In this document: positions 930 through 13,311 of the stretch, piece after piece
How positions within the stretch are numbered: the stretch's first letter is position 1
Layout: each line of letters opens with the position of its first letter
Made by a program: the position numbers and the translations under genes
Source: Oscillospiraceae bacterium
Lineage (GTDB): Bacteria > Bacillota_A > Clostridia > Oscillospirales > Ruminococcaceae
Direction of reading: 5' to 3'
Assembly (NCBI GenBank): GCA_017523995.1
Contig: JAFWUX010000017.1
Span: 1-13,311, forward strand
Length of the DNA stretch: 13,311 nt
Notes under the pieces: model-generated
Seen by the model: the letters and a program-made list of their open reading frames with translations, nothing else
The model's database searches: none
What the model was told of the DNA's origin: nothing

Positions 930-944
930 TCGTCGATTACCGAT

Positions 945-977
945 GCCGAGCCGGGCGGCTAATCCCGGCAGAAAGGA
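945..977 (+). repeat. 33-bp intergenic hairpin/ribosome-binding-site repeat, copy 1
   Basis: Identical over 33 bp to 2165-2197. It contains GCCGGG...CCCGGC, an alternative stem AGCC-GGGC-GGCT, and then the Shine-Dalgarno sequence GAAAGGA. The last 13 bases (CCGGCAGAAAGGA) occur a third time at 1154-1166 ahead of the gene at 1173. Here it precedes the TTG-start gene at 987. Confidence 0.75.
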
Positions 978-986
978 GCGGTTAAG

Positions 987-1151: not shown

Positions 1152-1172
1152 TACCGGCAGAAAGGATCTATT

Positions 1173-1355: not shown

Positions 1356-1364
1356 TGCTGCTAG

Positions 1365-1382
1365 GTTGCTACTAGTAGCAAC
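1365..1382 (+). terminator. Short hairpin with TTTT, attenuator-like
   Basis: GTTGCTACTAGTAGCAAC is a perfect 18-bp palindrome (7-bp stem, CTAG loop) followed at once by TTTTC. It sits between the genes at 1173 and 1405, just before the Shine-Dalgarno sequence of the latter. It could be a weak intrinsic terminator lowering downstream expression; the stem is only moderately GC-rich. Confidence 0.45.
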
Positions 1383-1404
1383 TTTTCGGAAGGAGAATGC
1401 CACT

Positions 1405-1764: not shown

Positions 1765-1789
1765 CCTCAACCAGAAAGGAAGGCGGTTT

Positions 1790-2143
1790 ATGTACGAACT
1801 CACAGAAGAACAGGAAGACCGGTTTCGTGCAGAGGAACGGAACCGAAAGAAAGAGCTGATTGAGAAAGTCCGCAGCAACGCACAGAAGCACTACGACCAG
1901 AACGAAGAAAACTATCAGTCTGCCGGTTCGCCGGGATCGTACCGGGCAATGAGCAAGTGGCAGGATCTTCTGGATGTTTGCAGCATGGCAGCGGCTAGTC
2001 TGGAAACAGAGTGCAGCCGGTGTCGGCAGCGGTATCGAAACGGCAAAATCTTGGCGCAACAGCTTAAAGATCAGAAAGCTGCTGGTCAGGAAAAGATCGA
2101 CATTGATAAAGCAATCGAACTGATCTTGACGGTTGCTTCGTAA
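1790..2143 (+). CDS. Hypothetical charged helical protein, 117 aa
   Basis: Begins MYELTEEQEDRFRAEERNRK. The N-terminal 45 residues are dominated by Glu, Arg, Lys and Gln, as in a coiled coil or long helix; a central CSRC pair and a further helical C-terminal part follow. Start supported by AAAGGAAGG upstream. No signal peptide or membrane segment. Family not recognised. A near-consensus promoter for the following gene overlaps its 3' end (2126-2153). Confidence 0.6.
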   Translation: MYELTEEQEDRFRAEERNRKKELIEKVRSNAQKHYDQNEENYQSAGSPGSYRAMSKWQDLLDVCSMAAASLETECSRCRQRYRNGKILAQQLKDQKAAGQEKIDIDKAIELILTVAS

Positions 2144-2153
2144 AAAATATAAT
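2126..2153 (+). promoter_or_regulatory. Near-consensus promoter for the genes at 2205 and 2501
   Basis: TTGACG, 16-nt spacer, TATAAT. The -35 lies in the last codons of the previous gene. The transcript would start near 2160 and begin with the 33-bp hairpin leader (2165-2197). Confidence 0.6.
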
Positions 2154-2164
2154 CCGTGAGAAAC

Positions 2165-2197
2165 GCCGAGCCGGGCGGCTAATCCCGGCAGAAAGGA
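2165..2197 (+). repeat. 33-bp intergenic hairpin/ribosome-binding-site repeat, copy 2
   Basis: Exact second copy of 945-977, here ahead of the ATG at 2205, with GAAAGGA as the Shine-Dalgarno sequence. The perfect conservation between two unrelated genes suggests a recent duplication or selection for the RNA hairpin. Confidence 0.75.
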
Positions 2198-2204
2198 CGA
2201 AGCT

Positions 2205-2504
2205 ATGAATAAGAAGGAACGCTGCGCGGTTGTTCGCGCAATGGATCTGATCGCCCGCACTGTAAATGACGATCATGTTTTCATGGAATGGCTGGCAGAA
2301 GGTGTCGATGACGGGGAGATTACTCCCGCCACGACTGATGACGATCTGAACTGCTACATTAAGAACGATGACGAATTTGGCGGACTGCTGTACACGTTCC
2401 TTCATCTCATGCATACAGCATTTGAGAAGGACGGACTGGTCGTTGACGGCGTGAAAAGTGAATACTTCGACCTCTATAATAACGTAAAAGGAGAGCCGTC
2501 ATGA
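2205..2504 (+). CDS. Hypothetical acidic protein, 99 aa, paralogue of the fragment at 498-590
   Basis: Starts MNKKERCAVVRAMDLIARTV. Acidic and helical, without signal peptide or membrane segment. The C-terminal half (LLYTFLHLMHTAFEKDGLVV, DGVKSEYF) matches the truncated gene next to the IS66 element, so this family was present at least twice in the row. Start supported by the leader Shine-Dalgarno site and by a near-consensus promoter 52 nt upstream. Its stop overlaps the next start by four bases (ATGA), showing translational coupling with the 222-aa protein. I recognise no function; the small acidic shape is common among plasmid- or phage-encoded accessory proteins. Confidence 0.65.
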   Translation: MNKKERCAVVRAMDLIARTVNDDHVFMEWLAEGVDDGEITPATTDDDLNCYIKNDDEFGGLLYTFLHLMHTAFEKDGLVVDGVKSEYFDLYNNVKGEPS

Positions 2505-3169
2505 GCGCGAAAGCTGAACGTGCGCGGAATCTCCGCTACAAGCGACCGGCACTTGCAATGCTGGGTTACGAATTAATCCTCAACGAGCTGTATGACATTT
2601 GCTCAGAATGCGAAACAATCCGCTACGCATGGGACGATGATAACATCCTCGAAGCAATGGACGGCGAAGAAGAAGACTTCTACGAGTTCCAGATGATGTT
2701 TTCAGACCTCTCAGCCGAAGCAGATCAGCTCTATGATATTCTCCAAGATTCTCAGATCGAGGAGAACTTCGATGACTGCACCGTTGCGCTGATGGGCAAT
2801 CGTTTTGAGTGTATCGGTTATGATACCGTAGAGGAAGACTACTACGGGCTGTGTCAGTACGAATCGGAACTTGCTCAGACAGTCAGCGGAAAGCGTGTCA
2901 TGCAGTTGACTAAGAAAGAAATGCTGTCCGTGATCGGGCAGTGCGTCAGCGCAATGGCAGCATTCTGGTCGATCCGTGAGAAATACGACCGGCTGCAAGC
3001 GGTCTTCGGCATCCTGAAAGATGATAATCATAGTATCATCGAAACGGTCAAGGAGATCGAAAAGGCATACACCGAGTTTTGCAATGAAGGCTGCTACGAA
3101 TACAGCAATGCCGCCAAGCAGCTTGACAGGCTGTGCAATGCTTTACCGGAAAGAGCGTGGATCATGTAA
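2501..3169 (+). CDS. Hypothetical acidic helical protein, 222 aa
   Basis: Largest protein of the row, beginning MSAKAERARNLRYKRPALAM. After a short basic N-terminus it is strongly acidic (EAMDGEEEDFYEFQMMF) and looks all-helical, with scattered Cys. It has no signal peptide, membrane helix or enzyme motif that I can see. It is coupled to the preceding gene by a 4-bp overlap, and GGAGAG serves as Shine-Dalgarno sequence inside the end of that gene, so the two products probably act together. The stop codon lies in the loop of an 11-bp hairpin (3152-3179). Family not recognised. Confidence 0.7.
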   Translation: MSAKAERARNLRYKRPALAMLGYELILNELYDICSECETIRYAWDDDNILEAMDGEEEDFYEFQMMFSDLSAEADQLYDILQDSQIEENFDDCTVALMGNRFECIGYDTVEEDYYGLCQYESELAQTVSGKRVMQLTKKEMLSVIGQCVSAMAAFWSIREKYDRLQAVFGILKDDNHSIIETVKEIEKAYTEFCNEGCYEYSNAAKQLDRLCNALPERAWIM

Positions 3170-3179
3170 TCCATGCTCT
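3152..3179 (+). promoter_or_regulatory. 11-bp hairpin enclosing the stop codon of the 222-aa gene
   Basis: AGAGCGTGGAT, loop CATGTA, ATCCATGCTCT; one pair is G-U. No T-run follows. Possible mRNA stabiliser or processing point between the 2501 and 3219 genes. Confidence 0.4.
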
Positions 3180-3218
3180 ATATCCGCATACGATGACATT
3201 TGAAAAGGAGGATGACCT

Positions 3219-3560
3219 ATGAATAACACGTTTGATATGTTCGAGGGACTGCCGGACTATGCAGTCAATTTCTTGCAGGATCAGTGCAGATTGTATCTTA
3301 CCGTGCCGGGCGTAAAGGAGTACATCGAACGAACCTATAATGATTTTCTGCGGCAGGGCTATACCAAAACAGAAGCACAGCGCGCTGTGAAGCGTATCGT
3401 TGAAACAAAGACACTCGTGTTTATCGGAGAGATGAACCGTGCAGAGGAAAGAGCGCGGAAGGAAAGCAGGGGCATCCGCCGCGTCCGGAACGAGCTGCGT
3501 GATTGGGTTTCTCATGCGTGGAAGCGGCTCGTGCTGGAGTTTCATATTCACTTCTTCTGA
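3219..3560 (+). CDS. Hypothetical basic protein, 113 aa
   Basis: Starts MNNTFDMFEGLPDYAVNFLQ behind a full AAGGAGG Shine-Dalgarno site. The centre reads like a helical bundle with a possible helix-turn-helix (FLRQGYTKTEAQRAVKRIVE), and the C-terminal third is Arg-rich and then aromatic. A DNA- or RNA-binding role would fit the charge, but no family is recognised. It is the last gene of the row: 60 nt later a strong promoter starts the unrelated secreted-protein gene. Confidence 0.65.
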   Translation: MNNTFDMFEGLPDYAVNFLQDQCRLYLTVPGVKEYIERTYNDFLRQGYTKTEAQRAVKRIVETKTLVFIGEMNRAEERARKESRGIRRVRNELRDWVSHAWKRLVLEFHIHFF

Positions 3561-3620
3561 CAATTTGCACAAATCAAGAAGCACATTTTGCATATTATAC
3601 ATAATGTTTCGAATTGCACC

Positions 3621-3659
3621 TTGACAAAACATTATTGTCATTCTATAATGATATTGTCA
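3621..3659 (+). promoter_or_regulatory. Perfect consensus promoter with operator-like repeats for the gene at 3775
   Basis: TTGACA (3621-3626), 17-nt spacer, TATAAT (3644-3649). The -35 overlaps an inverted repeat, TGACAA (3622-3627) with TTGTCA (3635-3640), and a further TTGTCA lies just downstream of the -10 (3654-3659). The arrangement suggests repression of an otherwise very strong promoter. The leader to the ATG is about 118 nt and has a 7-bp stem, ACCGCAG with CTGCGGT, at 3717-3740. Confidence 0.75.
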
Positions 3660-3774
3660 CAACAATACACATGCCGCATTAAACTGTTTTTCAATGACAT
3701 CACTCCCTGAAACCATACCGCAGAGGCTCTCTCCTGCGGTTGGAATAATATTTATTTACCAAGGAGGATACACT

Positions 3775-5277
3775 ATGAAACACGGCAAAATTCTCTCTCT
3801 GCTCTCGGCTGTTGTGCTCGGACTCTCGGCAGCAGTCGTTCCCGTCACCCTGCCGTACGCACCCGGCAGCATCACCGCGGAGGCGGCAAGCCTTTGGGAA
3901 ACAGATGACGGCTATCTGGTTTCCCGGTACAGCTCCGGAATCAAAATCGAAGGATACCAAGGAACAATGTCTCAATCAAATTATGTGATCCAGTCCGAAT
4001 ACGACGGTTATGAGGTTTTGAAAATTGTCGATGGCGCCTTCCGCAATCAGAAAATGACCGGCATTCAGATCCCTTCCACTGTGAAAATCATCGGGGAAAG
4101 TGCATTCAGCGGCTGTAATAAGCTCACAAAGGCTGAGATTCTGGGCGCGTGTACGATCGGAAATTATGCTTTTTACAACTGCTCAAAGCTGCAAAATATC
4201 ATCATGGATCAAAACTGCACCCGTGCCAACAGCTATACCGGCGAGCCGCAGGCACGCGGCTGCAATGTCTTCACGGGATGCACCTCGCTGACGAAAATCA
4301 ACAACAAGCTGGTTTTGAGGCATTCACAGGATCTTCACCCAGCGCCGTATCTGGAGTTTAATACTGATGTTCGCAAAATCATCAAAACCTTCTTTGTCAG
4401 AAGCCAGGATGTCAAATTCATCAACGATTACTGCACAGATATCTGCTATTACCTGCGGGATACGCTGACCAGAGATTGGATGAGCGAAGCTGTCAAGGCA
4501 AGACAGTATCATGACTGGATAGAAACCCATTGCAGACTGGAAGACGAAAACGGCACCGGCATGAGCCAAGAAACAGCGATTGATCCGGAAAATCAGCTCT
4601 ATTCTTCTGTGTTTCTGAGCTATGCGCTGAACATCAGGGGCGAGGAAATCGGAGAGTCAACCTGTCTCGGACTCGCAAAGGCATATCAGATGCTGCTGAC
4701 AGCTTCCGGAATCACAAGCTATGTGGTTTACCAGGATGCTTACAAGGATAAGAATAATCCTGCGAACAACGAACCGGGTCATGCCTGGAATCTTGTCAAA
4801 CTGGACAATCATTACTATCAGAGCGATCTATTTGTTGACATTGGTTTGAGATATCGGTATAATAATGTTACCTGCGGCAACGGTCTTTGCTATCGGATGT
4901 TCGTGGCATCGAATTCGGAAACAGGCAGCAACAATCCCAACCAAAAGAAAATCCACAATCCCCAAACCAGCGTTTTTGAAACCAACGGCCCCTCATATGC
5001 GCATCCGCTCGAAAACTACACCTACTCCTCGTCACTGAACAATCGCCTGAACCAGTGTACGATTTCTGGAAGTACATATGATCCGAACCGCGACGGCATT
5101 CTGGACGGCGACTGGAGCCTGAACGGCGTTGCGAATATGGGCGACAATACTTACTATTATGCAGCCTGCGATTGGTTCAATAGTACTTCCCTTTCGCAGG
5201 ATTATATGTGGGCGTATCTGTATTGGCTGGACTACTACGACTCTTCCCCGGATGAGATTCGGGACAGGTACATCTGA
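3775..5277 (+). CDS. Secreted BspA-like LRR protein with transglutaminase-like domain
   Basis: 500 aa. The N-terminus MKHGKILSLLSAVVLGLSAA is a signal peptide, probably cut near AEAA. Residues about 60-130 hold LRR_5/BspA-type repeats (QIPSTVKIIGESAFSGCNKL and the following GNYAFYNCSKL). Residues about 230-370 form a transglutaminase-like cysteine-protease-fold domain with the expected order Cys297 (STCLGLA), His336 (GHAWN) and Asp351 (YQSDL). Near the C-terminus, 436-447 reads DPNRDGILDGDW, like a single calcium loop of a dockerin, but no second repeat follows, so a working dockerin is doubtful. The frame is open from 3694; ATG 3775 is chosen for AAGGAGG and the signal peptide. It is probably an extracellular adhesion or protein-modifying factor; the substrate is unknown. 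Confidence 0.85.
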   Translation: MKHGKILSLLSAVVLGLSAAVVPVTLPYAPGSITAEAASLWETDDGYLVSRYSSGIKIEGYQGTMSQSNYVIQSEYDGYEVLKIVDGAFRNQKMTGIQIPSTVKIIGESAFSGCNKLTKAEILGACTIGNYAFYNCSKLQNIIMDQNCTRANSYTGEPQARGCNVFTGCTSLTKINNKLVLRHSQDLHPAPYLEFNTDVRKIIKTFFVRSQDVKFINDYCTDICYYLRDTLTRDWMSEAVKARQYHDWIETHCRLEDENGTGMSQETAIDPENQLYSSVFLSYALNIRGEEIGESTCLGLAKAYQMLLTASGITSYVVYQDAYKDKNNPANNEPGHAWNLVKLDNHYYQSDLFVDIGLRYRYNNVTCGNGLCYRMFVASNSETGSNNPNQKKIHNPQTSVFETNGPSYAHPLENYTYSSSLNNRLNQCTISGSTYDPNRDGILDGDWSLNGVANMGDNTYYYAACDWFNSTSLSQDYMWAYLYWLDYYDSSPDEIRDRYI

Positions 5278-5300
5278 ACATTCCGCTCTGAACTAAAACA

Positions 5301-5332
5301 GAAACCGCCCGCTTTGAAAAGCGGGCGGTTTC
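5301..5332. terminator. Strong bidirectional intrinsic terminator
   Basis: GAAACCGCCCGC, loop TTTGAAAA, GCGGGCGGTTTC, a perfect 12-bp GC-rich stem 23 nt after the stop at 5277. A short T-stretch follows on the plus strand and TGTTTTAG on the minus strand, so it can stop transcripts from both the gene at 3775 and the SRAP gene. Between here and 5545 I see no further gene or clear site. Confidence 0.9.
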
Positions 5333-5545
5333 ATTCTACGCAGATTTATCGACAGGATGTTTTCGCTTGAATAATTCTGATATCACCCACCCACTGTCAG
5401 TCCGTATTTTGTCGTAAAGGACTAGCCTCACCTTTCAAAATTCAGCTACGCTAGTAGTCGTTTTCTTTGTGTATGCGTGTTTTTTCTTTCAAATCAGCAT
5501 TGCTTGATTCGCAATCTACATCTGCTTATGAAAAATAAGAATTGA

Positions 5546-6253
5546 TCAATACTGTGCAAGCTCATTCCCAATCTGCATGAAATCCTGAATCGGCTCAGGA
5601 TAATCCTTTGCCTTTTCCACAACCATATTCGTCAAAGCCTTTGCCGCGATGCTGTCAGGATCACCGTCAGGGCGTATCCATTCTCTCAGATGCTCTTTGC
5701 CGAGAATGACCGGCATCCGGTTGTGAATGATGCTGACGGGCGCGACGGATTCTCTTGTCAGCACAGCAAACACCGGAATCTGAATGCCCCGATGTTCCTC
5801 AAAGCGATACAGACCGGCAAGGTATGTGATCTCCGCACCTTCCGGCTGGATCGCATACTTCTCTTTTTTGATTCTGTGCTGCTGATTGGCATTGCGGAAG
5901 CCTACCTCAGACGGCGGCACGCCCCATTCATAATACCACGATGCCGGTATGATACATCTGCGCCGATACCAAGAATCTTTCCATAGAGCCTTTTGATCGG
6001 CAGACTCTACACGGCAGTTGACTATCGGCTTTTCGGTTGCTTCATGCGTGAAGCCCCAGATCATAGGGAATACTGCCATACTGCCTTGTTTGTTCGGCGC
6101 AAGCACCGCAGCCATATCCGTAGGTCTGATGTTGCCGGACATCGCCATGCTCCGCGACATCGTAACCATCATCTCATGCGCAAGCGGCAGTTGCTGCGCC
6201 CTCGATATGAAATAAGATAGTGATTTGCTTTCAGCATAATACCAGACACACAC
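5546..6253 (-). CDS. SRAP-domain protein (YedK/HMCES family), abasic-site DNA-protein crosslinker
   Basis: 235 aa. SRAP proteins protect abasic sites in single-stranded DNA by forming a thiazolidine crosslink through Cys2 after removal of Met1. The frame can start at GTG 6262, but GTG 6253 gives Met-Cys-Val-Trp, placing Cys at position 2 as the mechanism needs; a GGGGGTG purine run lies about 8 nt upstream. Key family residues are present: Asn79 and Arg81 (VNCRVES), Glu109 (PASWYYEW) and His177 (IIHNRMP), agreeing in spacing with YedK Cys2/Asn75/Glu105/His160. It has its own perfect promoter and an SOS box, which suits a damage-inducible gene. The transposon right beside it ends 18 nt upstream of the -35. 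Confidence 0.92.
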   Translation of the reverse strand: MCVWYYAESKSLSYFISRAQQLPLAHEMMVTMSRSMAMSGNIRPTDMAAVLAPNKQGSMAVFPMIWGFTHEATEKPIVNCRVESADQKALWKDSWYRRRCIIPASWYYEWGVPPSEVGFRNANQQHRIKKEKYAIQPEGAEITYLAGLYRFEEHRGIQIPVFAVLTRESVAPVSIIHNRMPVILGKEHLREWIRPDGDPDSIAAKALTNMVVEKAKDYPEPIQDFMQIGNELAQY

Positions 6254-6279
6254 GGTATTCACCCCCGTTCAGCCAAAGA

Positions 6280-6291
6280 GAACATATATTC
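6280..6291 (-). promoter_or_regulatory. Putative LexA/DinR SOS box of the SRAP gene
   Basis: GAACATATATTC differs by one base from the Firmicute SOS box GAAC-N4-GTTC and sits inside a longer AGAGAA...TTCTCT symmetry. It lies immediately downstream of the -10, where LexA binding would block transcription. The SRAP family is named for its association with SOS genes, so location and gene function agree. Confidence 0.65.
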
Positions 6292-6298
6292 TCTTTTG

Positions 6299-6327
6299 AT
6301 TATACCACAAGTGAGCTGCTTTGTCAA
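6299..6327 (-). promoter_or_regulatory. Perfect consensus promoter of the SRAP gene
   Basis: On the minus strand: TTGACA (6327-6322), 17-nt spacer, TATAAT (6304-6299), with TG one base before the -10. All twelve core bases match the consensus. Confidence 0.85.
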
Positions 6328-6340
6328 TAGGGCGAAGGTA

Positions 6341-6345
6341 GTAAG
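6341..6345 (+). repeat. Target-site duplication, left copy (GTAAG)
   Basis: GTAAG directly abuts the left transposon end (TGTTAG at 6346) and is repeated exactly next to the right end at 12183-12187. Five bases is the duplication length made by Tn7/TniA/Mu-type transposases. Confidence 0.88.
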
Positions 6346-6420
6346 TGTTAGCGCCCAGCTAATTTGTCCTCCAGAAGTGAACGTATTTTGTCAGGGGCAG
6401 GCACTGTAATTTGTCAAGGT
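6346..6420 (+). repeat. Left transposon end with three transposase-binding-site-like repeats
   Basis: After the terminal 12 bp come three similar sites with their GTC at 6366, 6391 and 6413: TAATTTGTCC, TATTTTGTCA and TAATTTGTCA, about 22-25 bp apart. The first 45 bp align base for base with the inverted right end, including AACGTATTTTGTCA. Spacing of about two helical turns on one DNA face is as expected for TnsB/TniA-type binding sites. Confidence 0.85.
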
Positions 6421-6439
6421 ACGTTGGTAGACAGAAAGC

Positions 6440-6471
6440 AAACTGACATCCCCTCCCGGAGATGTCAGTTT
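6440..6471 (-). terminator. Terminator of the transposition operon
   Basis: On the minus strand AAACTGACATC, 10-nt loop, GATGTCAGTTT: a perfect 11-bp stem about 100 nt after the stop of the 79-aa gene, followed by GCTTTCTGTC. It would stop the operon transcript just before the left end. Between it and the gene only the 6484-6498 subterminal repeat is visible. Confidence 0.6.
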
Positions 6472-6483
6472 CAGATATAAGAG

Positions 6484-6498
6484 AGCAGATGCTCCCGG
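6484..6498 (+). repeat. Subterminal inverted repeat, left copy
   Basis: AGCAGATGCTCCCGG occurs here and, inverted, at 12051-12065 (CCGGGAGCATCTGCT). The two lie 138 and 117 bp inside their ends, and each is followed by one variable base and AAAA, so the repeat belongs to the element's end structure. Role unknown. Confidence 0.65.
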
Positions 6499-6569
6499 CA
6501 AAATCCCGTAAGGCGCTCAGGTCGCTCCCCAGCGTTGCCCTATCCTCCTCACGGGCAAAAGCCCATTGA

Positions 6570-6809
6570 TTAGAATGGAGATTGTTGAATCGGACAAGAC
6601 GAGCAGATATAACTGTCAGTGAAATGCAGCTCATGTCTGTCAAGAATATTGAGGATCTCAATTATAAGGTCATGTCTGCTTGTTTTTTCGGCATTATCGC
6701 TCTCGGTGAGTATTTGAAAATACTCGAACACTTCTTGCCTTGCTTTGGAATAATCCAAACGGCGCAGCAGCCAGATCAGCACAGCATCATGCAGCAGTTT
6801 TTCTGTCAT
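6570..6809 (-). CDS. Small fourth protein of the transposition operon, 79 aa
   Basis: Starts MTEKLLHDAVLIWLLRRLDY; helical and charged, ending in SYICSSCPIQQSPF with a CxxC pair. Its ATG overlaps the TGA of the ATPase gene (ATGA), so it is translated by coupling, which is the main support that it is real. It is the last gene before the operon terminator and the left end. I do not recognise the family. As a partner of a TnsC/TniB-like ATPase it could act in target choice or regulation, in the place where other systems have TniQ, but it is too short for TniQ and shows no match to it. Confidence 0.65.
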   Translation of the reverse strand: MTEKLLHDAVLIWLLRRLDYSKARQEVFEYFQILTESDNAEKTSRHDLIIEILNILDRHELHFTDSYICSSCPIQQSPF

Positions 6810-7621
6810 GTACTTTTCACCCCCGTAACCTCGTTTTCAAGTACGATGTCTACTGACTTGCTGTCAATGCAGGTTTGCTTCATCTGCGACCCATAGATCA
6901 GAGACTGACTGCAAGCCCGGTTAATGAGCCTTGGATTTCCGCCGGAGAACTCAAATATTGACTTCATGGCATCTTCTGTAAAAATAGGATTGCTATGACC
7001 GGCATACAAGAGCTGGGCTTCAATGTACTGCCTGGTATCTGCAAAGTCCATCGGAGTGAGGAAGCATTCAATGTCCACACGCTCAAGGATTGCTCTGTAT
7101 GCAGAGAGCCGCAGCTTGTCCCAGAGTTCTGTCTGACCGGACAGGATCAGCGCCATCGGGTTCTCTGAGTCCATCTTATAGTTGAGCAGAAAACGTGCTT
7201 CTTCCAGCATTTCTTTGCTCAGGAGATGTGCCTCATCAACGATCACAACCGCTTTCCGGTTCTGCATCCCGCGCATGATCTCGATCTGCTTATGAAGATT
7301 ATCCCTTGCGGTATTGCGCTGAAGCACAGGCTTGCAGCCCAGCTGCATCAGCAGATAATTGTAAAAACTGCGCGGTGTCAGCTTGGAGTCGGAGATATAC
7401 AGGACCATATACTCCGTTTCAGGAAGCTCATCCTTCAGGCGGCGGAGCGTACTTGTCTTACCTGTTCCGGGTTCTCCGATCAGGACAGCAAAGAGCTGGT
7501 TTCTGGCGGTGTATTCCAGACGGCTGAACACCTCTGCGCTCTGCCGTGTTTTATGCAATGCAGTGGTCGGAATGCTGCGTGTAAACGGCGTATGCTTCAT
7601 TTCATAGAACAGCTCAAACAT
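6806..7621 (-). CDS. AAA+ ATPase, transposition regulator (ExeA/TnsC/TniB/MuB-like)
   Basis: 271 aa. Walker A GEPGTGKT at residues 49-56 and Walker B VVIVDEAHLL at about 125-134 are intact; LILSGQTEL has the sensor-1 layout, and NPRLINRACSQSL near the C-terminus is typical of ExeA/TnsC-type AAA proteins. Proteins of this type bind target DNA in an ATP-dependent way and activate the DDE transposase. Start: ATG 7621 with GGAGGG about 8 nt upstream, overlapping the end of the transposase gene; codons further upstream in this frame lie inside that gene. The gene is intact, whereas the transposase upstream is frameshifted. Confidence 0.9.
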   Translation of the reverse strand: MFELFYEMKHTPFTRSIPTTALHKTRQSAEVFSRLEYTARNQLFAVLIGEPGTGKTSTLRRLKDELPETEYMVLYISDSKLTPRSFYNYLLMQLGCKPVLQRNTARDNLHKQIEIMRGMQNRKAVVIVDEAHLLSKEMLEEARFLLNYKMDSENPMALILSGQTELWDKLRLSAYRAILERVDIECFLTPMDFADTRQYIEAQLLYAGHSNPIFTEDAMKSIFEFSGGNPRLINRACSQSLIYGSQMKQTCIDSKSVDIVLENEVTGVKST

Positions 7622-8943
7622 TTTTATCGCCCTCCAAAGCTCTTGTGTACGAGATAACAGCTCTGCGTTCCTTCTCATCAGCAGTTTTGTTTACTGCATC
7701 AAGAAGCCTTGAGGAATCCGCAGGGAGACGGTCGATTCCGACACGCTTCGGCTTTTTCGCAACATGAGTACCGATCTTAGCTGGCTCGGCATAGAACGGT
7801 TCATGCCCTCTGGCTTCGATCCGTACCTTTGCGATGTTCAGCGGATCATAGACAACATCGACCTGTTGTCCGGCATACAGAAGCCCCACCTCGTATTCCT
7901 TGCCCATAAAGCTGATGCAGCCGGACTTGTTGACCTTTCGCGGCTCACAATGCAGGAACGCACTGGCAAGGAGTGCTTCATCAATTCAACGGCATCGAAT
8001 CTGACTTGAAAGCGCGTTCGGGAGTCGTGCCGAGCGCACTGTGCGTCTTGCTGTGGTAACATTCTGAAAGCCATGCCGTAAACAGACGGTTCAGCTCTTC
8101 GATGCTTTCCGGCGGGTTTACATCGATCTCAGCAAGAAAAGAATCGACAGTATGATTGAAACGCTCCTGTTTTCCCTTGCCCTGCGGGTTACGGGGCTTG
8201 GCGTACAGAAGCCGGATACCGAGCAGACCACAGGCACGCTTCATCCAATGTGTGCGGTATTGAGAACCGTTGTCAAAGTAGATACGGCGCGGAACGCCGT
8301 ACTTTTGAACACCCTTTTTCACGGTGTCTTCCACAATGGCCTGTTCCATGTCGCCGTAAAACTGTGCGTGGATGATGTAACGGGTGGCATCGTCGATCAG
8401 GCAGGATAGATATGTCGGCTGTGCTTTTCCCCCGATCCTCAGCGTCGGACCGTATTTGATGTCGCCCTGCCAGAGATCGCAGCGGTGAACCCTTTGAAAC
8501 CGCTGAGAAGCATATCCATTGTCCTGATACATTTTCATCATAGCAGACGAATATCCTTCCCTTGCAAGCGCCCGCTGCAATGTCGTGCGCTTCAGAACAC
8601 CCTGCTCCGCCCTGCCTTCCAGTTCGAGAATCCGGATAATGGTTGGTACGCTGCGTGACGGAACTTCACGGCGCAGGCGAATCGCTTCCGCGAGAATCTC
8701 TTTTGAAATGACGGGATTCTGCTCCGGTACTCTGCCCTGCGGTTCCAGACCGTCTATTCCCGATTCATTGTAGGCATCTACATATCGCTGCAAAGTACGG
8801 GTGGACACATCATACGTTTCGGAGATCTCACGGCGCTTCCTGTAGTATTCTTCCACTGATAAGAGCGCGCCGATCAGCGGCGCAATCATAATCATACGCC
8901 GCTCTGCAATCTCTTTTGCCAACTGCTTGTCTTTCATGCCCAT
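7614..8943 (-). pseudogene. DDE transposase (IS481/TniA/TnsB-like, rve fold), one frameshift
   Basis: About 442 aa once joined. Start at ATG 8943 (MGMKDKQLAKEIAERRM) behind AAGGAGG. An N-terminal helix-turn-helix region (about 25-60, with STRTLQRYVDAYNESG) is followed by the integrase core: Asp161 (WQGDIKYGP), Asp224 (YFDNGSQYR) and Glu260 (GKGKQERFN). The first frame ends with FKSDSMPLN and TGA at 7983-7981. In the +1 frame the protein continues at once as IDEALLASAFLHCEPRKVNK and on through the Mu-type C-terminal domain (GKEYEVGLLYAGQQVDVVYD) to 7614. Relatives as I recall them have about two more residues (PLRF-type) here, so a 5-bp deletion is the simplest explanation. The core would still be made without its C-terminal domain. 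Confidence 0.85.
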
Positions 8944-8975
8944 AGAGGCACCTCCTTCTTTGGTGATGCCTCTAT
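8942..8975 (-). promoter_or_regulatory. Hairpin enclosing the transposase ribosome-binding site and start codon
   Basis: On the minus strand ATAGAGGCA, 16-nt loop, TGCCTCTAT. The AAGGAGG Shine-Dalgarno site is in the loop and the A and T of the ATG are in the right arm. An alternative inner pairing CACC/GGTG is possible. Such a structure would lower transposase translation; the effect is inferred. Confidence 0.6.
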
Positions 8976-8999
8976 CATAGCATAATTCAGCCTGACAAT

Positions 9000-9482
9000 C
9001 TACACGAACTCGTTTGCCTTCCACTCATCAGCGTTTGCAACCGCTCTGACAAAAAACTTAAGCGTGTCAAATGTGGAATTGACATCGTAATTTGTCACGA
9101 GCATCGGGTGTTCCAGTTTCAGCCGTCTGACCGTTGCAGCCCCGAATTTAAAAAAGCGATCAACCCAACGACGGATACGTGCTGCGGAGTGATCATCAAC
9201 ACAATAGTCACCGATGGCATCATGAATTGCTGCAATCGCCTTCGTACACAGATGTTTGAACGGCGTAACAAAATCCGGAAGTTCCCTGTGATAGCGATGG
9301 CACAGTGTGCAAAGCAGTACTCTGACAGACAATTTGTCGCGCATTCCGTTTAACCTTCGTAAATACCGTCTGCATCTGCTGTGCGGCTTCATAATCTGAC
9401 CGCAATCCGGGCAAATAACAGTTTCAGTTCCGGTAATATAATGGATTTCGTCCTTGACATATTCGAAAAAAACGTGATACAA
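9000..9482 (-). CDS. DUF6431-like zinc-ribbon protein of the transposition operon
   Basis: About 160 aa. An N-terminal zinc ribbon pairs VICPDCGQIMKPH with VLLCTLCHRYHRELPDFVTP; the Cys pairs and the HRELPD...PFKH motif are typical of DUF6431 proteins, which I know as companions of IS481-like transposase/AAA modules. The C-terminal half is helical, with a possible helix-turn-helix (CVDDHSAARIRRWVDRFFKF), so DNA binding is likely. It is the first gene of the operon, 56 nt ahead of the transposase. The start is uncertain: TTG 9482 is the first codon after an in-frame stop, there is no Shine-Dalgarno site, and a run of seven T follows. An out-of-frame ATG at 9489 would join this frame if that run had six T. 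Confidence 0.75.
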   Translation of the reverse strand: MYHVFFEYVKDEIHYITGTETVICPDCGQIMKPHSRCRRYLRRLNGMRDKLSVRVLLCTLCHRYHRELPDFVTPFKHLCTKAIAAIHDAIGDYCVDDHSAARIRRWVDRFFKFGAATVRRLKLEHPMLVTNYDVNSTFDTLKFFVRAVANADEWKANEFV

Positions 9483-9483
9483 T
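9454..9483 (+). promoter_or_regulatory. Plus-strand promoter opposing the transposition operon
   Basis: TTGACA (9454-9459), 18-nt spacer, TACAAT (9478-9483), with TG one base before the -10. It lies inside the first codons of the DUF6431-like gene and points away from it, across the operon leader, with a start near 9490. Confidence 0.65.
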
Positions 9484-9496
9484 AATCATGTTGGGG

Positions 9497-9546
9497 ACGA
9501 TAGCCGTGTCATGAGTGCCAGTCATGACAATCAAAACGGCTATCGT
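9497..9546. promoter_or_regulatory. Composite hairpin in the operon leader
   Basis: Outer arms ACGATAGCCGT (9497-9507) and ACGGCTATCGT (9536-9546), perfect over 11 bp; inner arms TGTCATGA (9507-9514) and TCATGACA (9522-9529), perfect over 8 bp with a 7-nt loop; a 6-nt bulge on one side. It can fold on both transcripts. On the minus strand it ends 14 nt before the DUF6431-like start and is not followed by a T-run. Confidence 0.75.
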
Positions 9547-9574
9547 GTTCCTTTCTATAGGTATGAATATTTCT

Positions 9575-9602
9575 ATTATATCATGTTTCTTCATAAAAGC
9601 AA
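9575..9602 (-). promoter_or_regulatory. Probable promoter of the transposition operon
   Basis: On the minus strand TGATATAAT forms a perfect extended -10 (TATAAT at 9580-9575); the -35 TTGCTT with 16-nt spacing is weak. Start near 9568, leader of about 86 nt containing the composite hairpin. Confidence 0.5.
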
Positions 9603-9604
9603 AG

Positions 9605-9653
9605 ACGGTATCCTCCTGGTTCGCATAGCCGGAAAGATACCGTTTTTGTTTTT
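9605..9653 (+). terminator. Intrinsic terminator between the opposing units
   Basis: ACGGTATC (9605-9612) pairs with GATACCGT (9636-9643); the inside can extend the stem through TCCTGGTT with AGCCGGA using G-U pairs. It is followed on the plus strand by TTTTTGTTTTT. The minus-strand side also has CTTTGCTTTT, so it may shield the operon promoter from incoming transcripts. Confidence 0.8.
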
Positions 9654-9825
9654 GAACCGATATCGTATTATATTTGACGGCTTACAGCAGGTATACCATA
9701 AAACGATATACGTAAAACGAGCCGTCATTTGAGCCTGACTTCCGCAATGCGAATGAGCACAACGCATTAAAACATAAACAGGGAGCGAGATCACTGGTTG
9801 ATCCCGCTCCTGTTTATTCAGCCTA
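9654..9825 (+). other. Non-coding stretch between the antisense unit and the cargo promoter
   Basis: No gene with a ribosome-binding site is visible. It holds a long-range inverted repeat, TGACGGCT (9675-9682) with AGCCGTCA (9720-9727), a short AATGCG/CGCATT pair near 9750, and the terminator-like hairpin at 9776-9815. It is AT-rich compared with the flanking genes. Confidence 0.5.
9776..9815. terminator. Terminator-like hairpin upstream of the cargo promoter
   Basis: AAACAGGGAGCG...CGCTCCTGTTT with inner GATCA/TTGATC, an almost perfect stem of about 16-17 pairs with a single mismatch region and a 4-nt loop. TTTATTC follows on the plus strand. No gene ends near it, so it may insulate the cargo promoter or be left from a lost gene. 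Confidence 0.65.
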
Positions 9826-9854
9826 TTGACATTCTGCAGGAAATCTGCTATTAT
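9826..9854 (+). promoter_or_regulatory. Near-consensus promoter of the cargo gene
   Basis: TTGACA (9826-9831), 17-nt spacer, TATTAT (9849-9854), with TG one base before the -10. Start near 9861, leader of about 124 nt. Confidence 0.75.
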
Positions 9855-9940
9855 GAAAATGAAAGGATATTGCATCAGAAATCAAAGTGAAAGAAGGTGA
9901 TTCCCATGTGCTGAGCATATTCCCGCAGCAATCGATATCC

Positions 9941-9988
9941 ATGATACGCCGCAGAACAAGGCTTGTCCGAAAGGGGGAATTATTATGA
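9941..9988 (+). CDS. Candidate 15-aa Arg-rich leader peptide coupled to the cargo gene
   Basis: The frame reads MIRRRTRLVRKGELL and its TGA overlaps the cargo ATG by four bases (ATGA at 9985-9988). Upstream, ATG-TGC-TGA at 9906-9914 is a two-codon frame behind an AAGAAGGTGA Shine-Dalgarno-like site. The 15-aa frame itself has no clear ribosome-binding site, so it may be chance. Confidence 0.3.
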   Translation: MIRRRTRLVRKGELL

Positions 9989-11625
9989 AACACAGCAGAT
10001 TTATCTGTGCTGTCTGCGCGGCCGTGATGCTGACCGGCAGCCTTACAGTCTTTCCGGCAGAAATTACAGCTTATGCAGAGACAGAGCCTTTTTATATATG
10101 TTCTTCCGGTAATTTTGAATGGGATTTTTATAGGGACGGCACGCTGTTCATTTCCGGAAAGGGTCGTATGGATGACAATGAAGAAACACCGTTTGAGAAT
10201 TACAACCGCAATTCCGGGGACACGATTACACTGAAAAAGGTCATTTTTGAGGAAGGTATTACGCATATCGGTGCAGATCTTTTTTATTCCGGTGAGGATC
10301 AGGAGCCGGAAGGCGACTGCAAGGATCTGACCTCTGTGACGCTGCCGGACAGTCTGGAAAGCATCGGAGCAGGTGCATTTGAGAGCTGCCGGAAACTCAA
10401 GGAGATCAACATTCCGGAACGTGTACAGCATTTCGGGTACATGGCATTTGCGGGCACACCGTGGTATGATGATCTGAAAGCACAAAACGAGTTTGTCATT
10501 CTGAACAATGTGCTGCTGGAAGCACCGGCTTCAGAAACGCTGACCGTTCCGGACGGTGTTACACGTATTGCGATGCGCGTGGTCTGGTCGGATGAAGTCA
10601 GGCGCGTTGTACTGCCGGACAGCGTTACAGTACTGGAAGAGAAAGCATTTGCAGACTGCATCAATCTCGAAGAAATCGTCATTCCGGAAAGCGTCAGTGA
10701 AATCGGCATTTCGGCTTTTGCCGGTACAAAGTGGCTTGCGGACAGATGTGCAGAAAACCCTTGTGTCACGGTCAATCACATTCTAGTGGACTGTTATGCC
10801 GTTGAAGGTGAACTTGTCATTCCTGACGATGTGGAGATCATCCCGACGCTTGCGTGTGCAAAATACGAAGGGATTACCGGTGTTGTGATACCGGAAACAG
10901 TCAAAAAGATCGGAGCGGGTGCTTTTATGCAATGCAGCAGCCTGAAAAGTATTTCATTTCCGGATCATCTCGCAGCGATCCCGCCGTATATCTGTACCGA
11001 ATGCACCGCTCTGTCTGATATCCGGTTTCCTGCGCATGTACGTGAGATCGGACAGGCTGCTTTCGGCGGCTGCAGCGGTCTGACAGAGATCACGCTGCCG
11101 GAAACGGTCACATGGGTCGGTTATGCTGCATTTACCGAATGCAGCAGCGTGAAAGAAATCACCGTGCTGAATCCGTATTGCCGGTTCGTGAATTTCGGTC
11201 TTTCATTTTGCAATCATTTCATTTTCGATTTTGATAATGAGATACCGGTCAAAGATCGCTATGCCGGTACGGTTCGCGGTTACAGCAGTTCAACCGCAGA
11301 GGAAGCCGCAATAGAAGCAGACTATCCGTTTGTATCGCTCGGAGAAATCCCGGAGCAGGCATTTGTTCAGCCGCTTGTGCGCGGGGATGTTGACCGGAGC
11401 GACAAGGTCGATGTGGCGGATGCGGTTTTGCTGGCGCGGTTTCTGACAGAAGACGCGGAGGCTATTGTCACACAGGAAGGATTGATCTGCGCGGATACAG
11501 ATCGGTCCGGCAGCATTGACCTTGAGGATCTGACTTATATCCTGCAAAAGATTGCAAAACGCCCTGTTAATGACGAAATCTGGAATGAACGAACCGGGAA
11601 TCCGTTTTTGGATTATTTTCTTTGA
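9985..11625 (+). CDS. Transposon cargo: secreted BspA-like LRR protein with C-terminal dockerin
   Basis: 546 aa. The N-terminus MKHSRFICAVCAAVMLTGSL is a signal peptide, probably cut after AYA. Most of the protein is BspA-type LRR_5 repeats, recognisable from LTSVTLPDSLESIGAGAFES, ITGVVIPETVKKIGAGAF and LTEITLPETVTWVGYAAFTE. From about 468 to 533 there is a two-repeat type I dockerin: GDVDRSDKVDVADAVLLARF and ADTDRSGSIDLEDLTYILQK, each with a calcium-loop pattern. Dockerins anchor proteins to cohesins of a cellulosome scaffoldin; the LRR part probably binds a protein or surface. No catalytic domain is seen. ATG 9985 follows AAGGGGG. The gene has its own promoter and terminator, so it moves as a self-contained unit inside the transposon. 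Confidence 0.9.
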   Translation: MKHSRFICAVCAAVMLTGSLTVFPAEITAYAETEPFYICSSGNFEWDFYRDGTLFISGKGRMDDNEETPFENYNRNSGDTITLKKVIFEEGITHIGADLFYSGEDQEPEGDCKDLTSVTLPDSLESIGAGAFESCRKLKEINIPERVQHFGYMAFAGTPWYDDLKAQNEFVILNNVLLEAPASETLTVPDGVTRIAMRVVWSDEVRRVVLPDSVTVLEEKAFADCINLEEIVIPESVSEIGISAFAGTKWLADRCAENPCVTVNHILVDCYAVEGELVIPDDVEIIPTLACAKYEGITGVVIPETVKKIGAGAFMQCSSLKSISFPDHLAAIPPYICTECTALSDIRFPAHVREIGQAAFGGCSGLTEITLPETVTWVGYAAFTECSSVKEITVLNPYCRFVNFGLSFCNHFIFDFDNEIPVKDRYAGTVRGYSSSTAEEAAIEADYPFVSLGEIPEQAFVQPLVRGDVDRSDKVDVADAVLLARFLTEDAEAIVTQEGLICADTDRSGSIDLEDLTYILQKIAKRPVNDEIWNERTGNPFLDYFL

Positions 11626-11633
11626 ACGCCAAA

Positions 11634-11665
11634 ACCGCCGCCTGATTTTGCATTCAGGCGGCGGT
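11634..11665 (+). terminator. Terminator of the cargo gene, first hairpin
   Basis: ACCGCCGCCTGA, 8-nt loop, TCAGGCGGCGGT: perfect 12-bp GC-rich stem 8 nt after the stop. The minus-strand side is followed by TTTTGGCG, so it may also stop transcription coming from the right arm. Confidence 0.85.
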
Positions 11666-11677
11666 CAGCTTGTCCCC

Positions 11678-11702
11678 CCCCTCTGACAGAACGTCAGAGG
11701 GG
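11678..11702 (+). terminator. Second tandem hairpin after the cargo gene
   Basis: CCCCTCTGAC, loop AGAAC, GTCAGAGGGG, followed by CAATTTTG. A second strong stem 12 nt after the first makes read-through into the right end unlikely. Confidence 0.7.
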
Positions 11703-11933
11703 CAATTTTGAAGAATAATCTAGCAAAAACGGAAGCAGGAAGCAAAATCTGAATAAAAGCCATATAATACATTGGCTGACGGCGATTCCTTTTGAGCCGG
11801 AGCGCCAGTTTTTTCAAATTCAGGGCAGCAGATTAAAGCCCGAGCCATTTTGTGTCCTGAGCCCAAAGCAACGCTGTCATGCACGTTTCCAAACGAGCCA
11901 AGACACAAACCTGTCCGAATCACGGATTAAAGA
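11703..11933 (+). other. Non-coding stretch before the IS66 remnant
   Basis: No supported gene, tRNA or promoter seen. The only open frames lack ribosome-binding sites and resemble nothing. It could be decayed sequence of the IS whose end follows. Confidence 0.45.
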
Positions 11934-12003
11934 AGTCCAATGACTTGCTTAGGATTCCATTATACCATTTTTGACACTGGATGGGAAGACATTTTACCCT
12001 TAC
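11934..12003 (-). mobile_element. Solitary IS66-type end (remnant) inside the transposon
   Basis: Aligns with 421-497 over 70 bp with four mismatches and one 7-bp gap, then similarity stops on both sides. It keeps the GTAAGGGTAAAATG-type end (minus strand) and the TGGTATAAT promoter block, but no tnpA follows. It is either a deletion remnant of an IS66 element that had entered the transposon or a captured end. Confidence 0.75.
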
Positions 12004-12009
12004 TTTGAA

Positions 12010-12027
12010 CCTGTGCTGACGCACAGG
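12010..12027 (+). repeat. Short hairpin next to the IS66 remnant
   Basis: CCTGTGC, loop TGAC, GCACAGG, a perfect 7-bp stem lying between the IS66 remnant and the right-end array. No T-run follows. Confidence 0.35.
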
Positions 12028-12050
12028 ATGGGTTTATCGCTTTTGTTTTC

Positions 12051-12065
12051 CCGGGAGCATCTGCT
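12051..12065 (-). repeat. Subterminal inverted repeat, right copy
   Basis: CCGGGAGCATCTGCT, the inverted equivalent of 6484-6498, directly ahead of the first TGACAAAA site of the right end. Confidence 0.65.
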
Positions 12066-12069
12066 GTCC

Positions 12070-12182
12070 TGACAAAACAGGTGGGCGTCCTGACAAAATA
12101 CAGTGCCTCCACCTTGACAAAACGTGTGTCTGCGTGACAAAATACGTTGCCTTTTGGATGACAAAATGGGTGGGCGGTAACA
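12070..12182 (-). repeat. Right transposon end with five transposase-binding-site-like repeats
   Basis: TGACAAAA occurs at 12070, 12091, 12115, 12135 and 12159, spaced 21, 24, 20 and 24 bp, followed by the terminal TGGGCGGTAACA (12171-12182). Inverted, this matches the left end: TGTTACCGCCCA, then ATTTTGTCA, then AACGTATTTTGTCA. A GGCACTGTA(T/A)TTTGTCA block is also shared with the innermost left site. Three sites on one side and more on the other recalls the asymmetric ends of Tn7. Confidence 0.88.
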
Positions 12183-12187
12183 GTAAG
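12183..12187 (+). repeat. Target-site duplication, right copy (GTAAG)
   Basis: Exact repeat of 6341-6345, immediately after the right end. Confidence 0.88.
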
Positions 12188-12220
12188 AACGTAAGCGTCA
12201 AACCCCAGCGCACACACGAT

Positions 12221-12264
12221 AAAAGAAAGCCAGCCCTGCATGAAACAATACCACGCAGGGCTGG
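12221..12264 (-). terminator. Terminator of the C1 peptidase-dockerin gene
   Basis: On the minus strand CCAGCCCTGC (12264-12255), 15-nt loop, GCAGGGCTGG (12239-12230), followed by CTTTCTTTTATC. It lies about 80 nt after the stop at 12345 and just outside the transposon. Confidence 0.85.
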
Positions 12265-12344
12265 TATATTGTCTATACTTGATAATGCCTGAAGGCAAGC
12301 TGTTTTCAATCCGAAATTGCCGTATGCGTCAATGTCCGAATATG

Positions 12345-13311
12345 TTATTCCTGCTCCGGAATTTCTAGCAAAAAGCCGAGCAACCCCTTTGCATCCTCTG
12401 CGTTTAGCGCATTATCTCCGTTCCAGTCAGCCGCTTTCCGGTCAATGTTTGTCCGTTCACTGCCGAGCAGCACCTGTTTCAGCAGCGAGAGGTCAACGGC
12501 ATTCACCTTGCCGTCGCGGTTCAGATCGCCGCGGATGAACTGCTCCGCTTCGCCCTCGTATTCCGTATACACATAGGTACAGACATCGCCGTAATTCTTA
12601 TCGTAGCAATCCTTCCAGTTCAGTTTTGTATTATCTGTTTCGGCATTATGATTGGCATAAAAGGAAATACCCTTCTGATAGCAGTAGTCATCATAATAAA
12701 AACCGTAATTTGTCCCGATTGGCGACTTCACCAGAACGGAATATTTCTGTCCCTTTTTCACAGGATAACTCTCCGGCAGATATTCCGTATGGAATCCCTG
12801 ATATTCCTCTGTTCCGCTGATTGTGGAAACCAGCGTACCGTCCTGCGGATCGGTATAGTCGGGATTCAGCATATAAACAGATATTTCGTAATCCTGAGAG
12901 AGTCTGTCAGTCAAAAAGCCGACCGCAGCGATCTTTTCGTCTTTCTTCGCTTCAAACACCGTTGCCGTCACATAGCCGTAAGCCTCATTGGAAGGATACT
13001 TATGCGTTATTTTGGAACAGTTATTGTAGTGATAGACATCTCCGAAGTTTGTGACCGGCTGCATATCAAAATAAATGAACTCCCGTATTGTTGCTTCATA
13101 ATAGCTGAGATAAAAATACCCGCCGTCGGAAGTTTTGTAATCTCCCCAGCTGTTTTTGCAGATCCACGCGCCGTCAGCGGGTGCTTCCTGATTAAAGTCC
13201 TCTTTCGGATAATGATCATCCCAGCCGACAATCATAATACAGTGGGTACTGCCGTCGCCTTTTTGGATGGTTCCGCCGTTCGCATAATCGGCATTATAGT
13301 ATCCGGCTTTC
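12345..13311 (-). CDS. Papain-like (C1) peptidase with C-terminal dockerin, N-terminus outside the window
   Basis: The frame is open to the window edge; the visible 321 codons begin KAGYYNADYANGG and reach THCIMIVGWDDHYP, which holds the catalytic His, then GAWICKNSWGDY with the catalytic Asn of the C1 fold. The nucleophile Cys and signal peptide must lie beyond 13311. After the peptidase, a beta-rich region of about 150 residues (from YHYNNCSKITHKYP to CTYVYTEYEGEAEQ) fits the lectin-like domain often fused to bacterial C1 peptidases. The protein ends in a two-repeat type I dockerin, GDLNRDGKVNAVDLSLLKQV and ADWNGDNALNAEDAKGLLGF. It is probably an extracellular cellulosome-attached protease; its target is unknown. 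Confidence 0.88.
   Translation of the reverse strand, partial: KAGYYNADYANGGTIQKGDGSTHCIMIVGWDDHYPKEDFNQEAPADGAWICKNSWGDYKTSDGGYFYLSYYEATIREFIYFDMQPVTNFGDVYHYNNCSKITHKYPSNEAYGYVTATVFEAKKDEKIAAVGFLTDRLSQDYEISVYMLNPDYTDPQDGTLVSTISGTEEYQGFHTEYLPESYPVKKGQKYSVLVKSPIGTNYGFYYDDYCYQKGISFYANHNAETDNTKLNWKDCYDKNYGDVCTYVYTEYEGEAEQFIRGDLNRDGKVNAVDLSLLKQVLLGSERTNIDRKAADWNGDNALNAEDAKGLLGFLLEIPEQE

Follow-up and report, generated by a model that had tools for sequence, protein, structure and literature searches.

What kind of mobile element sets a zinc-ribbon protein beside a DDE transposase and an AAA ATPase, and what would a structured RNA, half of it at either end, do there? The question is raised by 13,311 nucleotides of DNA from an Oscillospiraceae bacterium (NCBI GenBank assembly GCA_017523995.1, contig JAFWUX010000017.1, positions 1 to 13,311 of the forward strand), the whole of which is called the window here, and within it by an element at positions 6346–12182. 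The reading put forward, with a probability of about 0.7, is that this is a DUF6431-TnsB-TnsC transposon which moves by the chemistry of Tn7, Mu and Tn5053, and whose two ends carry the halves of an RNA that pair into a bipartite molecule. An initial annotation of the stretch had described the transposon; the RNA halves at both ends are absent from it.

The transposon and its genes

It is confirmed that the transposon is real and correctly delimited at 6346–12182. The initial annotation had proposed a single transposon bounded to the base, with inverted-repeat ends bearing one mismatch and GTAAG on either side, and all of this is found exactly where it had been placed and is borne out by the ends and duplications of relatives. 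The left terminal inverted repeat, TGTTAGCGCCCA (6346–6357, plus strand), and the right one, TGTTACCGCCCA (12171–12182, minus strand; TGGGCGGTAACA in forward-strand letters), are identical at 11 of 12 positions, and the two copies of the target-site duplication GTAAG lie just outside them (6341–6345 and 12183–12187, both plus strand). The repeat is not significant taken alone: when up to two mismatches are allowed there are two matches where 0.90 would be expected, and 42 of 200 shuffles equal this. The argument that the 12-bp ends by themselves prove a transposon was rejected for that reason. What places the ends beyond chance is the exact 5-bp duplication outside the ends that the repeat fixes, together with an excess of TTTTGTCA and the matching ends of independent relatives. 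Indeed, TTTTGTCA occurs eight times in the window against 0.82 expected, a count that none of 200 shuffles reaches, and six of the eight copies lie in the end arrays, one of them in the left array and the other five in a 97-bp stretch of the right end. The right array (12070–12168, minus strand) has five TTTTGTCA sites and aligns with six other right ends; the left array (6360–6416, plus strand) has three putative TnsB sites, TAATTTGTCC, TATTTTGTCA and TAATTTGTCA (TGTC at 6365, 6389 and 6412), one of them a copy of TTTTGTCA and two of them near copies, and aligns with four other left ends.

The relatives come from one scan of 84,980 species genomes, which yielded 27 loci, 11 close (L002–L012; TnsB 60–94% identical over the best segment) and 16 distant (26–45%); a plasmid copy from R. 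albus (L001) brings the close relatives to 12. Across the window and these relatives seven right and five left ends can be aligned, the right ends with five TGTCA-kind sites (four in L005, and in L002 five including a degenerate one) and the left ends with three (four in L006). It had been allowed that homologous modules might prove to have different ends. L002, L003, L005 and L006 have ends of the same kind as the window, the more distant L012 has TGT/ACA ends with repeats diverged to 7/12, and the R. albus copies L001 and L010, as well as L011, have a right end only. When the window and ten relatives (L004 and L008 left out) were given to a script that looks for target duplications, these were found in four, namely GTAAG in the window, CATAT in L005, the 6-bp GCCAAG in L006 and CGGAA in L012. 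None was found by the script in L007 or L009, and L001, L010 and L011 fall outside the test, there being no 5′ half of the RNA to mark their left ends. By eye, L009 has TTTGT on both sides of a repeat of 6/12, which is below the threshold of the script and is uncounted. An empty site can be reconstructed for L006, where the flanks joined at one copy of the duplication give one uninterrupted frame, of IS256 type by eye. For the window itself, a search of 398 genomes with the right flank gave only two matches, of about 100 bases and inside a protease-like gene, from which no empty site follows; searches of viral contigs and phages gave no lead.

The gene order that had been read from the open reading frames, an operon of DUF6431, DDE transposase, AAA ATPase and a 79-amino-acid protein together with cargo, agrees with the family matches. 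The TnsB/IS481-like transposase gene (7614–8943, minus strand) is frameshifted, its rve part at 7981–8943 (expectation value, E, 2.9e-14) and a weak Mu-type C-terminal part (18.2 bits, cut-off 21.7) in another frame at 7614–7907. An intact relative of 444 amino acids (P0001) is 99% identical to it over 98% of the query, and D161, D224 and E260 are invariant across 20 aligned sequences. Against solved structures the TnsB profile matches TnsB itself (7svw, 4.6e-9, over the N-terminal 70 positions) and the IS5376 transposase (5.1e-9). In other words, the description of the element as complete holds in that both ends are present but not in the sense of a functional element: since its transposase gene is frameshifted, the window copy is not intact, being disabled in its transposase, and would need the help of an intact copy. 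The ATPase, of TnsC/MuB type (6806–7678, minus strand), matches AAA_22 at 2.7e-24 and TniB at 24.2 bits (cut-off 22.4), and a TnsC profile, from an alignment in which L010 was omitted and L001 trimmed to its annotated start, finds MuB first (2e-11), then VchTnsC (7.2e-6) and ShTnsC (8.9e-4). The last gene of the operon (6570–6809, minus strand) encodes the 79-amino-acid protein, which has homologues in L001, L002, L003, L005, L006, L010 and L011 and matches no family significantly (DUF4272, E 0.012, below cut-off). Among the matches listed for six element proteins (for the ATPase, 25 of its 28 Pfam matches) there is none to TnsA, TniQ/TnsD, TnsE or a TniR resolvase, in keeping with the absence of TnsA and TniQ/TnsD noted at the outset.

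At the head of the operon stands the DUF6431 zinc-ribbon gene (9000–9482, minus strand; Pfam 1.6e-14), the frame of which departs from that of its relatives near the start, such that the window copy appears to be frameshifted there. DUF6431 adjoins TnsB over the Pfam cut-off in L012, L013, L014 and L133, and just below it in L015 and L022, which suggests that DUF6431-TnsB-TnsC is a broad transposon class. By record title, too, a DUF6431-type protein adjoins TnsB-TnsC in L013 (Clostridiales), L014 (Chloroflexi), L015 (Bacillota) and L022 (Spirochaetales). A further protein, P0126, found on six contigs, begins as DUF6431 and by eye resembles the 79-amino-acid protein at its end; it is a possible non-autonomous derivative, such as would result from a deletion inside the element. 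With its zinc ribbon and helical part, DUF6431 would probably bind DNA and aid the choice of target or the recognition of the ends. A fold model of a relative (P0124; predicted local distance difference test score 83.2, as against 55.8 for an earlier model from 23 sequences) gives weak zinc-ribbon matches only, with no TniQ listed, and excludes nothing. The protein might instead be a transcriptional repressor of the operon, with no part in target selection or end binding, an idea held at rather less than even odds: the match that would point to it is weak, the fold is very common, and DUF6431 stays next to TnsB, as a core part would, as far afield as the Chloroflexi (L014) and, just below the cut-off, the Spirochaetales (L022).

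The mechanism favoured for these parts follows that of known relatives. TnsB would bind the TGTCA arrays, five sites at the right and three at the left, nick the 3′ ends at TGT/ACA and join them to the target across a 5-bp stagger, and the TnsC/MuB-type ATPase would pick and license the target DNA. Excerpts of two papers describe the same nicking and joining of 3′ ends by TnsB with a 5-bp stagger, and a cointegrate as the product without TnsA (PMC11406308, PMC8649781). Since neither TnsA nor a resolvase is seen in the element, movement would most likely be replicative, with cointegrates.

A structured RNA divided between the ends

The stretch between the gene for the 79-amino-acid protein and the left end is conserved in L003 and L005, though the protein is only 43–48% identical there. 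A 27-base pattern from this block is present in 19 of the 394 genomes searched from the order, and its reversed control is unmatched among the matches listed. The block holds the 5′ half of a structured RNA (6484–6562, minus strand), comprising GCUUUU, a helix P1 with inner helices P2 and P3, and the first strand of P4; it is a training sequence of the covariance model built for the RNA, R1, with which it scores 90 bits. Across 24 aligned sequences 91.9% of the cells in P1, P2 and P3 are paired, a percentage lowered by three rows of the alignment (A4) that stand one column off in P1 (L074, L076 at 17250, and L087), and 11 of 16 pairs have changed on both sides. The covariation score is 0.496 against 0.174 in shuffles, none of 500 being as high. 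More weight is given to the controls in which the register was slid (29–46% of cells paired) and to the 66 double-changed cells of the true register, because related sequences can beat shuffles without any structure. All nine pairs of P1 show double-sided changes, and one pair of P2 is G-U in 13 of the 24. The model finds four loci outside its training set (L007, L008, L009 and L012, 81–89 bits), each time downstream of transposition genes, and matches 25 of 391 genomes of one class, taken as the Clostridia. Rfam 15 gives no match at gathering score in the window, L002, L003, L005 or L010. In 10 more loci the RNA is likewise unmatched, and an unsplit copy has no match even at E ≤ 10; identity with a catalogued family such as raiA was rejected on this account. 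The RNA is not among the families catalogued in Rfam 15.

In eight elements (the window, L002, L003, L005, L006, L007, L009 and L012) the RNA is divided. Its 5′ half follows the operon, on the side of the left end, and its 3′ half, on the same strand, is at the right end. The 3′ half in the window (12031–12065, minus strand) holds the second strand of P4 and GGAAAACAAAAGCGATAAACC. Two of the close relatives depart from the full layout: L007 lacks the part of its left end that would lie outside the RNA, and no ATPase gene is seen in L008. When co-folded, the two halves of the window form P0, P1 and P4 around a three-way junction with a binding energy of −28.0 kcal/mol, against −5.3 (standard deviation 2.8) for shuffled 3′ halves, and over the eight elements own pairs average −19.8 kcal/mol and other pairs −15.6. 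Moreover, P4 differs between two clades, A and B, on both strands, and its scores are 11–17 for own halves, 8–17 within clade A, 13–16 within clade B and 8–10 across clades. The pairing of the halves through P4 is, then, supported by covariation and energy, and were they to pair in this way the complete RNA would need both ends of the element. To our knowledge there is no precedent for an RNA with its halves at the two ends of a transposon.

How the halves would come together in the cell is suggested by the signals around them. The last stretch of the operon would encode the 5′ half and the right end the 3′ half, with P4 joining them. A promoter score of at least 10/12 just upstream of the RNA occurs in none of the nine rows from close transposons and in 16 of the 41 others (recounted by eye, without a shuffled control), and the score before the 5′ half in the window is 9/12; since no strong promoter precedes it, this half is probably transcribed as the end of the operon messenger RNA. 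Two transcripts would fit both the TATAAT immediately upstream of the 3′ half in L007, L009 and L012 and the hairpin with a run of U that closes the 5′ half in L012. The RNA would be assembled in the cell from two such transcripts, and that it regulates transposition or the expression of the transposase is a guess, more apt to fail than to hold. The wider proposal, of a new Clostridia family of RNA found across unrelated transposons, split in the DUF6431-TnsB-TnsC elements and assembled in trans from both ends as a check on, or regulator of, transposition, is similarly tentative.

The unsplit RNA and the weighing of readings

The RNA is by no means confined to these transposons. In its unsplit form it has, after P1, a P4 stem closed by GGAAAACNAAAGCGNUAAACC or a variant of that sequence. 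P4 was examined in 26 loci with a 3′ strand found by pattern, taken from 40 stretches (L071–L090 and L121–L140) after removal of duplicates, and own partners score 10.8 on average against 8.5, a value matched in none of 5000 permutations. Fifteen neighbouring proteins from 14 loci, chosen among the 40 stretches as transposase-like, were compared with NCBIfam. The RNA proves to lie in or beside IS21 elements (IstB over the cut-off at L073, L074, L087, L129 and L137), IS256 elements (L127, L130, L131 and L136), and one each of IS30 (L084), IS3 (L076) and IS110 (L086), all over their cut-offs, with an IS110 (L075) and an IS6-like neighbour (L138) below them. In L086 it is just upstream of the IS110 transposase, the orientation of IS256 genes relative to it varies, and in other stretches it has recombinase or phage-like genes nearby, or no recognised mobile gene. 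In the genome G1359 it sits inside near-identical repeated units, a 2911-bp IS21 unit present three times and a 2034-bp unit present twice, albeit as weak members of the family (38–41 bits with R1). The explanation that insertion sequences merely insert beside the RNA was rejected for these two elements, the RNA being within the repeated units. In L133 (3900–7244) a distant DUF6431-TnsB-TnsC operon and a DUF6618 gene are followed on the same strand by the unsplit RNA, and the split form could have arisen from such an arrangement.

A few isolated occurrences may be added. A DUF6618-like protein (26.9 bits, cut-off 27) is present in the RNA-bearing IS21 unit of L137; a partial RNA (48.6 bits) lies at 1395–1441 of HG796808.1 (L141), a circular plasmid record of 2376 bp from an uncultured bacterium; and L006 has a second, weaker copy (12597–12667, minus strand; 27.3 bits) some 430 bases outside its element, near the interrupted IS256-type gene. 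In L083 (reverse complement, about 1830–2070) a left end of the L012 type is seen by eye with the 5′ half of the RNA and no transposase among the listed open reading frames nearby; by eye it is a solo end or remnant.

Several observations weigh against the transposon with a bipartite RNA as proposed. L002 and L003 have both ends and no matching duplication by the script, and unrelated AAA proteins (Cdc6 at 3.7e-6, and others) are ranked among the matches of the TnsC profile. Three of eight elements have their own 3′ half as the best in the row by energy, and four of eight by P4 score, ties counted; by energy the 5′ halves of clade B gain nothing from their own clade (−13.5, against −13.9 with 3′ halves of clade A), and among unsplit RNAs the own P4 strand is the best of 26 in only 6 of 26 rows. 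P0 forms with at least five pairs in 5 of the 19 single-strand folds listed. The model R1 recovers no 5′ half from L001, L004, L010 and L011 or, at E < 0.1, from any of the 16 distant loci. Of these, L001, L010 and L011 keep the right-end half, so survival of the module does not always go with survival of the split RNA, unless these three copies are dead. Lastly, a terminator-like hairpin comes after the 5′ half in the window and its relatives; in the window it lies between that half and the left array (6440–6471, minus strand), and it recurs at the same place in L002, L003, L005 and L006.

Part of this evidence would be accommodated if the halves acted as DNA, providing subterminal inverted repeats and spacing for the transposase or a host factor as the relic of an ancestral RNA gene. 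The strands of P4 do double as a subterminal inverted repeat at the two ends, and the imperfect preference of halves for their own partners, the group of L001, L010 and L011 without a 5′ core, and the lack of promoter scores of 10/12 or more before all nine 5′ halves of these elements would all be in keeping with it. However, a role as DNA has no need of double changes at all nine pairs of P1 or of a G-U pair in P2 in 13 of 24 sequences, and the 5′ core is intact in elements whose TnsB is only 60–65% identical, which together make this explanation an unlikely one. Somewhat less likely still is that the RNA is made in one piece, and only from end-joined forms such as excised circles or head-to-tail dimers, as a sensor of a transposition intermediate. 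Under that proposal the terminator-like hairpins after the 5′ half, in L012 with its run of U, would stop a transcript before it reached the junction, and the TATAAT just upstream of the 3′ half in three elements suggests a separate start, even though the halves share a strand and are so ordered that joining the ends would bring them together, and the operon of L133 runs on to an unsplit RNA. No circle was seen, although no search aimed at one was made. The bipartite RNA, paired through P4 from the two ends, is thus retained as the preferred reading.

The importance of the RNA, which is the larger point, is that one structured RNA recurs across IS21, IS256, IS30, IS3, IS110, IS6-like and TnsBC elements, a spread that points to some need shared by mobile elements of the Clostridia. 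As regards the proteins, transposition by TnsB and TnsC of the Tn7 kind usually has a target selector of its own, TniQ for example, and a widespread module with a DUF6431 zinc ribbon where a selector might be looked for offers a compact system in which the role of the selector can be examined. Both this question and the role of the RNA are directly testable. In the portions of the openly licensed literature covered, one paper mentions DUF6431, a single time, in a gene table; no description of a DUF6431 transposon group was recognised in that literature, and none of this RNA or of any RNA split between the ends of a transposon.

Cargo, flanks and comparison with known systems

The only passenger of the element, between the right array and the operon, is a gene for an LRR_5 protein of 546 amino acids (9985–11625, plus strand; 2.4e-53), with a secretion signal by eye and a dockerin match below threshold (20.7 bits, cut-off 22.9). 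L002 and L003 have nothing at this place, and the protein has no match at E ≤ 1e-20 in the other loci compared. An additional 1.6 kb in L005 was rejected as cargo because it holds a nested transposase gene of 396 amino acids, IS630-like by eye, in the DUF6431 leader. In the window that leader has a hairpin, CGATAGCCG...CGGCTATCG, just before the DUF6431 start (9498–9545, minus strand), and a terminator-like hairpin faces inward from the right end upstream of the operon (9605–9643, minus strand); both are present in L002, L003 and L011. The flanks encode proteins similar in kind to the cargo, namely an LRR_5/transglutaminase-like protein (3694–5277) and a lectin-like/papain-like protein with a type I dockerin (12345–13310). 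Further out, an open reading frame at 13–408 (minus strand) is like an IS66 accessory protein by eye, with no Pfam family over the cut-off. The left flank (5300–6345), with an SRAP gene, matches two plasmids of R. albus 7 at 70–76%, so that a plasmid from some Ruminococcus relative may be the source of the window.

Turning to known systems, the element is a Tn7/Mu-related design of gut and rumen bacteria. It is very unlikely to be an ordinary insertion sequence of the IS481 family, with a helper ATPase and a chance passenger gene, for, although IS481 is its best NCBIfam transposase family and shares TGT/ACA ends with it (PMC11406308, in excerpt), it scores 180.6 bits against a cut-off of 224 (for the rve part of the frameshifted copy only) and has the weak Mu-type C-terminus, the TnsC/MuB-type ATPase and the multi-site asymmetric ends that are traits of Tn7 and Mu. 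As for IS21, with which it shares a DDE and AAA pair, a profile match to the IS5376 transposase and, in some elements, the RNA, the NCBIfam scores are far below the cut-offs (43.5 bits against 160 for IS21, and 15.9 against 200 for IstB). We know of no helper ATPase and no site arrays in IS481. The IS110/IS1111 elements, with their bridge RNA or seekRNA, likewise carry a structured RNA on a mobile element, but the present RNA is common to unrelated transposase families and is for that reason unlikely to be an IS110 guide.

With Tn7 the element shares relatives of TnsB and TnsC by profile, as well as TGT/ACA ends, asymmetric arrays of sites and a 5-bp duplication (as in an excerpt of PMC11406308), the latter being 6 bp in L006 and not found in L002 and L003. 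It differs in having no TnsA, TniQ/TnsD or TnsE match among those listed, and in having DUF6431, the 79-amino-acid protein and the halves of the RNA at its ends. The Tn5053/Tn402 group (TniABQR) also combines a DDE transposase and an AAA ATPase without TnsA, and the ATPase is just over the TniB cut-off, AAA_22 scoring far better; the difference lies in TniQ and the resolvase, to which no match is listed among the tested element proteins. With bacteriophage Mu the element has in common the sub-threshold Mu-type C-terminus of its transposase and an ATPase whose best solved relative is MuB, but it is small, without phage genes, and has DUF6431. A composition unlike the classic Tn7, Tn5053 and Mu layouts had been noted, and with no TniQ match listed and DUF6431 in first place this stands. 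In excerpts of two surveys, tnsD/tniQ occurs in 73–97% of transposons per clade (2021; PMC8649781), and no target selector is reported for IS21 (2023; PMC10293859). Because no match to TniQ is listed and the cut-offs of IS481 and IS21 are missed, the element is not filed under Tn7/Tn5053, IS481 or IS21; it would work like Tn7, Mu and Tn5053, and yet appears to belong under none of them.

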